This document shows positions 51,748-55,094 of a stretch of DNA of 64,000 nt, one piece after another. The position numbers and the translations under genes were made by a program. Origin of the DNA: Acidocella sp. (GTDB lineage: Bacteria > Pseudomonadota > Alphaproteobacteria > Acetobacterales > Acetobacteraceae); NCBI GenBank assembly GCA_027308685.1, contig DAIDEE010000006.1, forward strand, positions 62,001-126,000, written 5' to 3'. How positions within the stretch are numbered: position 1 is the stretch's first letter; each line of letters begins with the position of its first letter. Below the pieces are notes generated by a model. The model saw nothing but the letters and a program-made list of their open reading frames with translations. It was not told the DNA's origin and did not search any database.

Positions 51748-51954
51748 TTATTTGCCGATGATAACGTCGGAAGATTTGACAATTACCGTAACAGCATCGC
51801 CAATCTTCAATCCTAAATCATCGGCGGCCTCATTTGTGATCGACGAGGTAACGATATGGCCATTGCCGATATCTACGCGCACATGTGCTGTCGTCTGGCC
51901 CTTCATCACGGCGACGATGGTTCCTTTGAACTGATTACGGACACTAAGTTTCAT
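51748..51954 (-). CDS. Mop/TOBE-domain molybdate-binding protein
   Basis: This 68-residue stand-alone Mop domain starts at the ATG at 51954 behind GGAGA. The protein reads MKLSVRNQFKGTIV and ends with IGDAVTVIVKSSDVIIGK, the typical TOBE fold for molybdate binding. Its start is separated by only a terminator hairpin from a displaced copy of the rpsI end. In the ancestor it probably sat directly downstream of rpsI. Confidence 0.88.
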   Translation of the reverse strand: MKLSVRNQFKGTIVAVMKGQTTAHVRVDIGNGHIVTSSITNEAADDLGLKIGDAVTVIVKSSDVIIGK

Positions 51955-51965
51955 AAAAATTCTCC

Positions 51966-51995
51966 AAAAAAACCCCGGATCGCTCCGGGGTTTTT
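51966..51995. terminator. Strong terminator, probably the original rpsI terminator
   Basis: CCCCGGA at 51973-51979 pairs with TCCGGGG at 51984-51990, flanked by A runs (51966-51972) and T runs (51991-51995), so it can act on either strand. It is directly downstream (in minus direction) of the displaced 24-bp rpsI end at 52002-52025. The likely reading is that it once terminated rpsI and was cut off by the inserted element. Confidence 0.85.
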
Positions 51996-52001
51996 GGGGG
52001 A

Positions 52002-52025
52002 TTAGCGCTTGGAGAACTGGAAGCT
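52002..52025. repeat. attL: 24-bp copy of the rpsI 3' end
   Basis: The 24 bases are identical to 54142-54165 and include the stop codon and the last seven codons (SFQFSKR read on the minus strand). Beyond them the two sites diverge completely. The second half (TTGGAGAACTGGAAGCT) recurs imperfectly at 52165 onward. Confidence 0.9.
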
Positions 52026-52164
52026 TTGTAAAGCATTGTTTTTGCTTAATTATTTTTGATAAAAATAATCCGTGAACGATCTGTGAAAAAAATTGGATGG
52101 CTTGCTTGGCCATTAGGCGCACCTTCCGTATTGCCCCCCCTTATTCTTCCGGATAAGCCGATCC

Positions 52165-52250
52165 CGCTTTTGAGGACTGGAAGCTTTGCAAGGCATTGTT
52201 GTTTGCGTGATTGTTTTTGAACGAAATGACCCTGTGAATGATCTGTGAAA
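52165..52250. repeat. Second att-like copy, imperfect
   Basis: The stretch repeats 52006-52088 imperfectly: both contain GACTGGAAGCTTTG or its variant, then an AGGCATTGTT-like piece, and end with GTGAA-N4-CTGTGAAA. It lies within the element, not at its edge. It may be an older attachment site left by tandem insertion and deletion. Alignment was done by eye. Confidence 0.75.
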
Positions 52251-52421
52251 GCCGTCTGGTAGATTTCTTGCTGATCAGGCCACCTTTCGCAAGGAAAAGT
52301 CCACACGCACCGGGTCATATGGAAAGATCACGTGTCCGCCCTCAGCGTAGCAAGGTCAATGAAGCGGTATGGCCTCTCGCGTTCCCCGGCATGCTTGTGA
52401 TCGCCCCGCCGCCGGACCGCA

Positions 52422-52841
52422 TCAAGGTTCCCAGGGGTTGATGATCCTCACGTCGCAGTTCTCAAAATCCGCCACGTTGCGGGTGGCCAGTTCCGCGCCA
52501 CGGGACTGGGCGATGGCGGCGATCTGCGCATCGAACTGGGAGATCGGCTTGCCCATCTGGCGCCGCCCAGTGGAAATCTCCGCAAAGGCGCTTGCCGCAG
52601 GGCTGTCAAACGGCAGGACGCGCCCGGCGAAATCCACAGCCAGCATGGTTTCAATGGCGGTGAGCAGCTCGCTTCTCCGCCGCCCCTCGGGCAGCAGCAT
52701 AACGCCATAGCGCAACTCCGCCTCGGTGACGGTGGAGAGGAACAGACTTGTTGGGGGCCGTGCTGCCAGCCAGGACATTACCGCCAGGGCAGGGGCGGGG
52801 CGCATAAGCTCCGAGACGACATTCGTATCCAACAGGATCAT
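52422..52841 (-). CDS. vapC: VapC-type PIN-domain toxin
   Basis: The 139-residue PIN ribonuclease has MILLDTNVVSELM at the start (first acidic residue D5), an STVTEAELRYG segment (second acidic) and a C-terminal DAQIAAIAQ/ADFENC region. It is the standard VapC/FitB layout. The start overlaps the antitoxin stop in an ATGA junction. It should cleave RNA when free of its antitoxin. Confidence 0.92.
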   Translation of the reverse strand: MILLDTNVVSELMRPAPALAVMSWLAARPPTSLFLSTVTEAELRYGVMLLPEGRRRSELLTAIETMLAVDFAGRVLPFDSPAASAFAEISTGRRQMGKPISQFDAQIAAIAQSRGAELATRNVADFENCDVRIINPWEP

Positions 52842-53086
52842 CAGTCGAACGCCGGAGGCTCGGGCATCGGTTCACGCGGCGCTATGGGCAGGTCGGCCCC
52901 GCCCAGGGCAGCGAAGCGGGCATGGATGGTTTCGGCCAGGTTGGCGGCGGGCGGAGCTTGGCGGCTGAGAGCCGAGCGAATGATGTCGCGCGCCTCGTCT
53001 TCCATGGACCGGCCATGGACCGCCGCCTGCACGCGAAGACGGGATTTCAGCCCGTCTTCAAGATTGCGAATGGTGATGCTGGCCAT
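52841..53086 (-). CDS. FitA/VapB-type antitoxin, ribbon-helix-helix
   Basis: This 81-residue protein starts at the ATG at 53086 behind AGGAGC. It reads MASITIRNLEDGLKSRLRVQ, then AAVHGRSMEDEARDIIRSAL, the ribbon-helix-helix DNA-binding domain of FitA-like antitoxins. A proline-rich C-terminal tail follows and presumably wraps the toxin. It overlaps the toxin start by four bases. A longer frame to 53323 is not supported. Confidence 0.9.
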   Translation of the reverse strand: MASITIRNLEDGLKSRLRVQAAVHGRSMEDEARDIIRSALSRQAPPAANLAETIHARFAALGGADLPIAPREPMPEPPAFD

Positions 53087-53506
53087 GAGCTTGCTCCTGA
53101 CGTTCTGGCGTTGATGACATTCGCAGCAATGATTGCATAAACTAGACCTGCCCGCCAGTGCGATTACGCGATAACGGTTCTTTGTTCGGACCGGCAAAAC
53201 CCGGTTCTTCGTCCCGTCCCTGGTGGCAGGAACCTGGAAGGCGCGCAGCCAGTCAAAGGATGGCGGCACAGCCGCCACCGCCACAGGCGGCGCGCAGACA
53301 CGCACAGCCCGTAGGGCGAGCATGGCGAGCGTCCTTGCACGGGCAAGCGCATGGAGGGAGAATCGAGCCTAGAAGGCGGCGTTGGGGGCGGTTGGCAGTG
53401 TCGTTACGATAATGCAGTATGCGCTAGCATTCCTTGATCTGTAGAAATTACATAACATATTACCGCTGATAAAGCTGGGAATTATCCACGGATGTGACAG
53501 CGGAAA
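53087..53506. other. Gene-free stretch within the rpsI element, 420 bp
   Basis: Only short frames without domain matches are seen. The right part (about 53460-53570) carries repeated short pieces such as GGAATTATCCACGG and CGGAATAATCCACCG, which may be binding sites or decay products. Nothing else could be named. Confidence 0.5.
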
Positions 53507-53986
53507 CTATCTCGGAGTAATACTCTGACTATACCACTGAATAATTCTCGGAATAATCCACCGAATGATAGTTGGCAGTTGGCACACTGGAGGTGGTTCA
53601 TCTGCTACCAGGAGGTGCCTTGCGGTAGCCTGTTCTAGATAGATATCGGGCGGCAGCGGTTCCTTGTGCAGCCGCTGGCGGTGGATCGACTGGCCGGTTT
53701 CGTGAGCGCTGTAAAAGCGCTTCCATAGGTCCTTGAATTTGAGGTTCCCGGCGATTCTCACATCCACGCTGAGCTTCTGCTCGGCCCGGAGTTCGTAGAA
53801 CAGGTCCTCGGCCAAGTTGGGGGCGGTGGGAAGGTCGCGGGTCTTGAGGGACCGGATGATGTAGCCGGTGACGCCGGGGATTTTTAAGCGGGCCTGGTAG
53901 ACCTGCTGGTTGGTGTCGCCTCGCCGGTACACCATGACGGCCCCGTCCCGGAGGCGGTGGGCTTGCTGGTAGAAGCTCTCGACCAT
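53507..53986 (-). pseudogene. Truncated tyrosine integrase, N-terminal domain
   Basis: From the ATG at 53986 the frame reads through an arm-binding domain as in phage-type tyrosine recombinases: MVYRRGDTNQQVYQARLKIP, then YIIRSLKTRDLPTAPNLAED and LFYELRAEQKLSV. After about residue 120 the sequence becomes unrelated and it stops. The catalytic R-H-R-Y domain is absent, so it cannot recombine. It is the first gene beside the rpsI end, where an integrase for this att site would be expected. Confidence 0.82.
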
Positions 53987-54080
53987 GATCCAAATTCCAC
54001 AATTTCTGTGAAAGTTCTGTGCAAAACGCTAACTGGAAACAGCGTCGGAAACAAGGGTCTGTAAAGCGTCCGTGAATGTA

Positions 54081-54116
54081 AAAACAGGGACTTGATTTAC
54101 ATCAAGTCCCTGTTTT
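54081..54116. terminator. Terminator now serving rpsI
   Basis: AAAACAGGGACTTGAT (54081-54096) pairs perfectly with ATCAAGTCCCTGTTTT (54101-54116) across a TTAC loop. It is only about 26 bases from the rpsI stop. On the minus strand it ends in a T run. It belongs to the inserted element and replaces the original terminator. Confidence 0.9.
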
Positions 54117-54141
54117 AATTGAATAAATTGAAGCCTAAGAC

Positions 54142-54627
54142 TTAGCGCTTGGAGAACTGGAAGCTACGGCGGGCCTTCGCTTTGCCGTACTTTTTACGTT
54201 CAACCATCCGGCTATCACGGGTCAGGAACCCGGCAACCTTCAGGATACCGCGCAATTCCGGTTCATAGAGTTGCAACGCGCGCGAAATACCATGGCGTAC
54301 TGCGCCGGCCTGACCGGACAGACCACCACCAACGACCGTGCACATCACGTCGAACTGGTTGTAGCGGTCAGCTACCAGGAATGGCTGGGTGATCAGCATC
54401 CGCAACACCGGGCGGGCGAAATACACCGGAGCTTTTTTGCCATTGACCATGATCTCGCCCTTGCCAGGCTTGATCCAAACACGGGCAACGGCGTTTTTGC
54501 GGCGGCCCGTGGCGTACGAGCGGCCTTGCGCGTCACGCTTGGGCTCACGTTTTGGGGCAGCGGTTTCAGCGGTGACAACGCCGGCCATGTCTTTCAGGCC
54601 GGCAAAGCTGTTGGTTGATTCAGACAT
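54142..54627 (-). CDS. rpsI: 30S ribosomal protein S9
   Basis: The 161-residue product has an N-terminal alphaproteobacterial extension of about 35 residues, then the S9 core with [18 protein letters not shown] and the C-terminal [17 protein letters not shown] that reaches the P-site tRNA. The ATG at 54627 has GGAGAG before it; a TTG two codons upstream is less likely. It follows rplM by two bases. Its last 24 bases are the att core of the inserted element. Confidence 0.97.
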
Positions 54628-54629
54628 GC

Positions 54630-55094
54630 TCAATCTCTCCGGTTCTTGGCGTTAAGCGCGCCGACATCAAACGGCTTTGGCTGCTGGGCGGCATGCGGGT
54701 GCTCAGCGCCAGCATACACATATAAATTTTTCATCTGCTGGCGTTGCAGCGGGCCGCGCGTAATCATGCGCTCAATGGCTTTTTCCACGACGCGCTGCGG
54801 GTTAGCGCTGGCCAGACGATCCTTGATGGTCCGTCCCTTGATGCCGCCGGCATAGCCGGTATGGTAATAAAGCACCGACTGTTCCATTTTTTTGCCGGTC
54901 AGCTTAATTTTTTCGGCATTCACGATGATGATATTGTCACCACAATCAACATGCGGCGTGAATTGCGGCTTGTGCTTACCACGCAGACGGCTGGCGACGA
55001 TGGCAGCTAGTCGGCCCAGAATCAGGCCTTCGGCGTCGATCAACACCCAGTCCTTCTTTACATCCGCTGGTTTCAGCGAAACGGTCGTTCTCAT
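54630..55094 (-). CDS. rplM: 50S ribosomal protein L13
   Basis: The 154-residue L13 starts at the ATG at 55094; the longer frame to 55184 has no ribosome site. It contains [20 protein letters not shown] and the conserved [18 protein letters not shown] and [14 protein letters not shown] segments. It and rpsI form the usual two-gene operon. Confidence 0.97.

Follow-up and report, generated by a model that had tools for sequence, protein, structure and literature searches.

Organization of the rpsI locus

The window analysed here is a 64,000-nucleotide stretch of an Acidocella draft genome (Acidocellaceae, Alphaproteobacteria in the NCBI taxonomy) that includes rpsI, the gene for ribosomal protein S9 (54142..54633; PF00380, E 1.5e-48), which lies on the minus strand, as does every other feature of the window described below. 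The last 24 bp of rpsI (54142-54165) recur as an exact copy at 52002-52025, 2.14 kb away, and these are the only two copies in the 2.86 Mb draft genome with up to three mismatches allowed. A 21-bp part of the repeat, searched with the same tolerance, was found twice in the window, and two copies were obtained in none of 100 shuffles. Repeat searches and comparison with relatives identify the two copies as an rpsI-side and a distal attachment (att) site, the first providing a reconstituted 3' end to rpsI and the second corresponding to the displaced rpsI end. The att core common to related elements is shorter than 24 bp, spanning about 19-22 bp (approximately TTCCAGTTCTCCAAGCGCT). The host flank beyond the distal site contains mop, encoding a molybdopterin-binding protein (51748..51954; TIGR00638, E 2.9e-21).

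The only whole genes recognised between the att sites are those of a toxin-antitoxin pair of the VapBC/FitAB type, which by sequence consists of a vapC/fitB-like PIN toxin gene with an open frame of 139 aa (52422..52841; PF01850, E 2.4e-13) and an adjoining gene for a vapB/fitA-like ribbon-helix-helix antitoxin of 81 aa (52841..53086; PF22513, FitA-like_RHH, E 1.8e-18). Closer to the distal site lies the 3' end of a regulator-like gene (52275..52331) that, in a by-eye sequence comparison, is longer in the relative G321. On the rpsI side, codons 1-108 of a 428-codon integrase gene (53663..53986) are fused to the 3' tail of a cargo gene, here called X (53598..53663), and the catalytic part of the integrase is missing. 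The integrase fragment alone matches no Pfam or NCBIfam family; over its first 108 residues, it has 96% identity to the integrase of A. facilis ATCC 35904 (G120) and 95% to that of A. aminolytica DSM 11237 (G190), two members of the same genus, and the whole 428-aa A. facilis protein matches PF00589 (E 2e-10). Thus a tyrosine integrase that is whole in relatives is truncated beside the att site of the window. An initial annotation, made from the letters of the window, had proposed a perfect 24-bp repeat of the rpsI end, a vapBC-type pair in the insert and a truncated tyrosine integrase beside rpsI, and all three are borne out by these comparisons.

The ends of the insert also carry pairs of arm-type repeats with an 11-bp period. 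A motif scan places them at 54059..54076, at 54006..54023 just upstream of int, and at 52232..52249 and 52070..52087; all four pairs in the window fall within the element, as compared to 0.03 expected, with a motif that was itself derived from the window. By eye, the motif reads TTCACAG in near relatives, TTCACCA in the loci L103, L104 and L106, and TTGACAA in L108, variation that would be expected if the arm sites track their integrase. The two distal pairs accompany the inner and outer copies of a 160-bp end module bounded by the outer att copy and a third, degenerate att copy at 52169..52185 (86% repeat over 35 nt). Two such modules, 160 bp apart, are found at the distal end in A. facilis, A. 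aminolytica and G303, and a single module in G321. A recent second tandem integration was considered as the source of the third att copy and rejected; the distal end is common to A. facilis, A. aminolytica and G303 at 92-94%, and the duplication therefore predates the insertion in the window.

Empty and occupied sites in Acidocella

Among the 38 genomes of the genus in the collection, the rpsI end is readable in 33, the window's included; the five left out (G284, G301, G302, G304 and G318) have an rpsI that is unmatched or cut by a contig end. The island flank is present in 7 of the 33 and absent from 26, and across all 38 genomes the rpsI-side flank was found in 7 and the distal end in 6, two of these partial. 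Each of the 26 empty sites has a single copy of the core, counted in the rpsI locus only, and in each the 65 bases that follow the stop codon contain a fold below -10 kcal/mol; the contig ends 34 bases past the stop in G310, which shortens this span, and 68 bases past it in G316. Direct repeats of the rpsI end thus border the insert where empty sites have one copy, which is the arrangement of a genomic island. The initial annotation had predicted that empty sites would join the rpsI end, its terminator and mop directly; the single core and the hairpin at the stop codon agree with this prediction, and the adjacency of mop does not hold, as the sister genome G315 has an empty site and no match to mop. 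The gene lying beyond rpsI is hpnK in 20 of the 26 empty sites, with mop between the two in G314 and G307 only, and mop is a sporadic neighbour of rpsI. At the distal att sites of A. facilis, A. aminolytica, G303 and G321, all fetched whole, a host-type hairpin comes next by eye, with hpnK farther out. In A. facilis, an Rce1-like gene separates the distal att site from hpnK.

The distal end does contain a local duplication of 160 bp, which raises the question of whether vapBC arrived alone beside rpsI and the 24-bp repeat is itself a local duplication, with no island involved. This origin is scarcely credible, being contradicted by the empty sites, by colinear relatives with longer islands and by the ends that all of these have in common. 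Nor was any relative lacking vapBC seen to possess two copies of the 24-bp sequence, among the rpsI loci of the 26 empty relatives, an observation that would have spoken against the island as originally proposed.

Longer relatives and the deletion junction

The initial annotation had also suggested that relatives might harbour elements in which this core is accompanied by an intact integrase, and such elements exist: 428-aa integrases adjoin rpsI in three species, namely A. facilis, A. aminolytica, whose 28.6 kb element has both ends on one contig, and Phenylobacterium kunshanense, with an element of 51.5 kb. The second copy of the core in P. kunshanense, at a distance of 51.5 kb, is followed by a hairpin; an arm pair is present, and the start of argC, identified by eye, lies outside. 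A scan of named genomes gave 14 loci, some of them from the same genomes as G120, G190, G303 and G313. The upstream flank was examined in 12 of these loci; rpsI lies upstream of int in 11, and the int start is 150-210 bp behind rpsI in 10. In locus L102, int is 3.7 kb farther from rpsI, and its flank starts at GCGCTAA, located at the end of another gene. Broken integrases also occur, with shifted frames in L102 and one stop in L103.

Other departures from a single, intact island were noted in passing. On A. facilis scaffold 8 (L111; L078:1195-1525), a second rpsI-side flank and int start are fused, without rpsI, to the end of vapC at GCGCTAA, a sequence that also occurs in the core; the junction in L102 is of a similar kind. 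The integrase of G313 (L084:4183-4643) lacks its middle, matching residues 1-53 and 313-428, and appears to belong to another decayed island; one copy of the core was found in this incomplete genome. G303 possesses two differing copies of the integrase C-terminus (L083 and L105; 91.8% identical over 583 columns), a sequence comparison that suggests two islands in tandem at rpsI.

The closest relative, G303, has an island in which the C-terminal part of int is followed by hsdM, hsdS, hsdR, ygjP, X, vapB, vapC and att. From position 53663 to the distal att site, the window is colinear with this island over 1699 bp (93.6% identity), and with G312 from the same junction to the end of the G312 contig, over 1427 bp (94.6%); the X tail has 94% DNA identity to A. 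facilis, G303 and G312 from the junction on. On the rpsI side, the match to relatives' integrases runs to codon 108. Homology at the junction is at most one base, and the missing stretch, gauged on the island of A. facilis scaffold 4, is 9.0 kb. As judged from these alignments, the 2.14 kb insert is a deletion remnant of an rpsI-specific Acidocella island, with about 9 kb lost in one deletion, and the ancestral island was very likely a type I restriction-modification island. The remnant is unable to move alone.

The pair that survived the deletion is present in G000, A. facilis, A. aminolytica, G303 and G312. For vapB, dN/dS is 0.08-0.10 against four relatives, and for vapC 0.23-0.35 against three; the integrase remnant gives 0.085-0.097 against other Acidocella, as low as vapB, and the ratios thus do not single out vapBC as selectively kept. 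Retention of the pair may nonetheless reflect the cost of losing it.

Cargo and the wider integrase family

The longer relatives differ in cargo. The island of A. facilis scaffold 4 encodes HsdM, HsdS, HsdR and YgjP. A dynamin-like GTPase, which falls below the Pfam cut-off and matches PADLOC LeoBC at E 1.2e-13, is encoded on scaffold 8 along with a Fic protein; vapBC is also found in this species. The A. aminolytica element has its own integrase, a MobA/MobL relaxase-helicase and a TraG-type coupling protein, together with HsdR, HsdS, HsdM, Abi_C, ArdC, HipA, a WYL protein, a patatin, a RES protein and a CBASS-type cyclase, and its vapBC is 77-79% identical to that of the window. Within this island (G190:C50:46053-74700; L043, L079), HipA, vapBC and RES-type proteins represent toxin-antitoxin systems, and the cyclase is accompanied by the patatin. 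A MobA/MobL relaxase and a resolvase are among the four P. kunshanense proteins scanned, and no relaxase was found in the G303 contig. The scanned Acidocella islands thus carry defence-type genes, including type I restriction-modification, a CBASS-type cyclase and toxin-antitoxin pairs, and judging from these relatives the island that gave rise to the remnant once carried anti-virus genes.

In a class-wide integrase search, a threshold of E 1e-60 returned none of 385 genomes and missed the window's own fragment too, and E 1e-15 returned 26 of 385. Of the 30 loci fetched, 4, the window's included, are at rpsI, indicating that the wider integrase family uses other targets. Distant integrases of G447, G606 and G521, with 27-43% identity in the portion aligned, are also situated behind rpsI. 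A phage origin was considered and set aside, as viral contigs yielded no confirmed relative of the integrase and phage records none. Plasmid matches were confined to four records at 26-30% identity, and the integrase had no match among solved structures.

A hairpin that probably replaces the rpsI terminator

Each att copy of the window is followed by a hairpin. The one past the displaced copy (51966..51995) folds at -22.8 kcal/mol (51960-52001; z -4.2 against shuffles) and resembles the hairpin that immediately follows rpsI at empty sites, for example in G180; it is probably the original rpsI terminator, now displaced, as the initial annotation had supposed. The hairpin behind the rpsI stop codon (54081..54116) lies inside the element and is stronger still, at -24.8 kcal/mol (z -8.7 against shuffles). 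A simple terminator scan called neither hairpin, we surmise because the T-run is paired within the stem. A strong hairpin after the att site is found in most related elements, and an alignment of 14 element flanks, from which L106 was left out, has 90.6% of its cells paired. Cells with both sides changed number 24, as compared to 8.7 in shuffles, and the covariation score is 0.386 against 0.210 in shuffles and at most 0.139 with the partners slid. Base pairs with a change in both partners (6 as compared to 5.0, equalled or exceeded in 157 of 500 shuffles) and further pair types (17 against 15.8, in 163 of 500) do not stand out, such that covariation is above shuffles in three of five measures. 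The hairpin is in a shifted register in L104 and L108, is weak in the second A. facilis flank (-13.1 kcal/mol), and has no strong counterpart in L106 (-4.3 kcal/mol). In three distant rpsI-side elements (L115, L131 and L136), those of G447, G606 and G521, a GC-rich stem followed by TTTTT is seen by eye after the stop codon.

From these comparisons, the hairpin is a feature that recurs within the element family, and a terminator for rpsI is probably supplied by the element itself. The claim of the initial annotation that rpsI now ends on a new terminator holds as regards a strong, partly covarying hairpin within the element, and termination at this hairpin is probable. The position of the hairpin between the att and arm sites, its absence from the calls of the terminator scan and the want of a strong hairpin in L106 would also suit a DNA or RNA control element belonging to the mobile element, such as an accessory-protein site or a brake on int. 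Such a function is unlikely to be the explanation, given stem changes that keep pairing, a position that formerly belonged to the displaced host terminator, and the stems with T-runs of the three distant elements.

Proposed integration and decay, and possible residual mobility

Integration of a tyrosine-recombinase island at the 3' end of rpsI, followed by decay through a deletion of about 9 kb, is in our judgement highly likely. The island would have entered by recombination within the core of about 20 bp, leaving the end of rpsI intact, setting the element's hairpin, arm sites and int behind the gene and pushing the host terminator, with mop and hpnK, to the far side. On arrival, the island probably contained a type I restriction-modification operon, ygjP, gene X and vapBC in addition to int. 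In a subsequent deletion, integrase codon 108 would have become fused to the tail of X; the catalytic domain and the restriction-modification genes would thereby have been lost, and both ends and vapBC left behind, with no capacity for self-excision. Such an arrangement suggests a way for an element to reside without harm in an essential ribosomal gene, the last codons and stop codon of which remain intact and which has probably gained a new terminator. It also illustrates clearly how an island can decay until a toxin-antitoxin pair is all that survives whole of its cargo.

A cognate integrase supplied in trans might nevertheless move the remnant or join it in tandem. Both cores and four arm pairs are present in the window, and relatives show signs of tandem islands (two int copies in G303, a second rpsI-side flank in A. 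facilis), such that the remnant, as a passenger, could be excised or replaced through the integrase of a newly arriving island. The genome of the window contains no cognate integrase, the sole other match having 36% identity (E 1.2e-6), and continued mobility of this kind, conceivable as it is, seems to us somewhat less probable than permanent residence.

Relationship to rpsI-specific elements of Firmicutes

The use of rpsI as an att site in Firmicutes, which the initial annotation had mentioned, is in agreement with published passages on Streptococcus and Macrococcus, in both of which rpsI islands encoding tyrosine integrases are well documented. Streptococcal integrative elements (IMESag-rpsI and ICESt3-related elements) encode tyrosine integrases that act at rpsI (PMC5704250, PMC5090054, PMC7563491), and the Acidocella islands resemble them, as described in those passages, in having a tyrosine integrase located at the rpsI 3' end, att sites on either side, cargo that includes toxin-antitoxin genes, and tandems with decayed elements. 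The streptococcal elements differ in having Firmicutes hosts, and the passages mention no element-borne terminator; the likeness described here is one of site and layout. In the Macrococcus island McRImecD-1, for which circular excision has been shown, the 3' end of rpsI is likewise displaced by the island (PMC5341023), whereas its core of 61 bp, its phylum and its cargo are different, and the word "terminator" is absent from the main text of that paper. Integrases adjoining rpsI are also reported there for Bacillus and S. aureus.

Decayed ICEs and IMEs that keep their att sites are known as CIMEs, of 1.2-13 kb, and microCIMEs, of 130-220 bp and without genes, according to passages of PMC7563491 and PMC5704250. 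The remnant in the window resembles a CIME in that both att sites are kept and the set of recombination and conjugation or mobilisation genes is lacking, and the 160-bp end module resembles a microCIME, as defined in those passages, in size and absence of genes. A deletion is indeed seen, but the G303 contig yielded no relaxase, in which case the ancestor would be classed as a mobile genomic island and not as an ICE or IME; the elements of A. aminolytica and P. kunshanense do possess MobA/MobL proteins.

Among the matches listed, the titles and abstract beginnings in the open-licence literature describe no rpsI island in Alphaproteobacteria, which falls short of proving that none has been reported. 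The portions of three alphaproteobacterial papers that name rpsI use it only as a tree marker (PMC3189940, PMC7656271, PMC9239051), and a fourth, PMC6814406, concerns a prophage promoter, with little bearing here. With the islands described above, integration at the 3' end of rpsI, established for Firmicutes, is extended to Alphaproteobacteria, where the hosts include Acidocella and Phenylobacterium, along with genome bins that bear the labels Rhizobium, Rhodospirillaceae and others.

A serine codon within the att core

Both att copies of the window read TCC-AAG-CGC-TAA, and the rpsI end of the sister genome G315 reads AGC-AAG-CGT-TGA. A single clean crossover is insufficient to explain this difference, since one of the two sides would then retain the host form. 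TCC and TAA were either already present in the ancestor or introduced by conversion during repeated visits. Across the genus, codon -3, which encodes the serine of the terminal SKR, is AGC in some genomes and TCN in others, forms that one base change cannot interconvert, and seven changes are needed on the tree. These switches might mean that the rpsI 3' end of Acidocella has been repeatedly overwritten by island visits, the serine codon of the core being a scar, a tentative and rather improbable reading. If it were true, the att-core codons of essential genes would record past integrations that are now invisible, and the codon pattern might serve to test for past island visits.

All seven occupied sites have TCC, and TCN is found in 7 of 7 occupied as compared to 13 of 26 empty sites (Fisher p 0.027 in the 33 genomes, with kinship ignored). 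A tie between occupancy and the TCC codon is unsupported once kinship is allowed for, with the same direction in 0-2 of 6 independent pairs and never the opposite. Within rpsI, the serine at codon -3 switches seven times, that at codon -7 five times and the other two not at all; codon -7 is outside the shared core and yet switches, which counts against a pure scar. In a purH control of 27 genomes, 10 of 11 conserved serine columns never switch, and one (alignment column 446) switches between AGY and TCN five times, such that these switches are not unique to att sites. Taken together, the controls back the scar reading weakly. The genomes G276 and G229 differ at codon -3 despite agreement at 487 of 500 upstream bases; they have 8 changes within the 60 columns around the stop codon, and three other pairs are alike, with 5-11.
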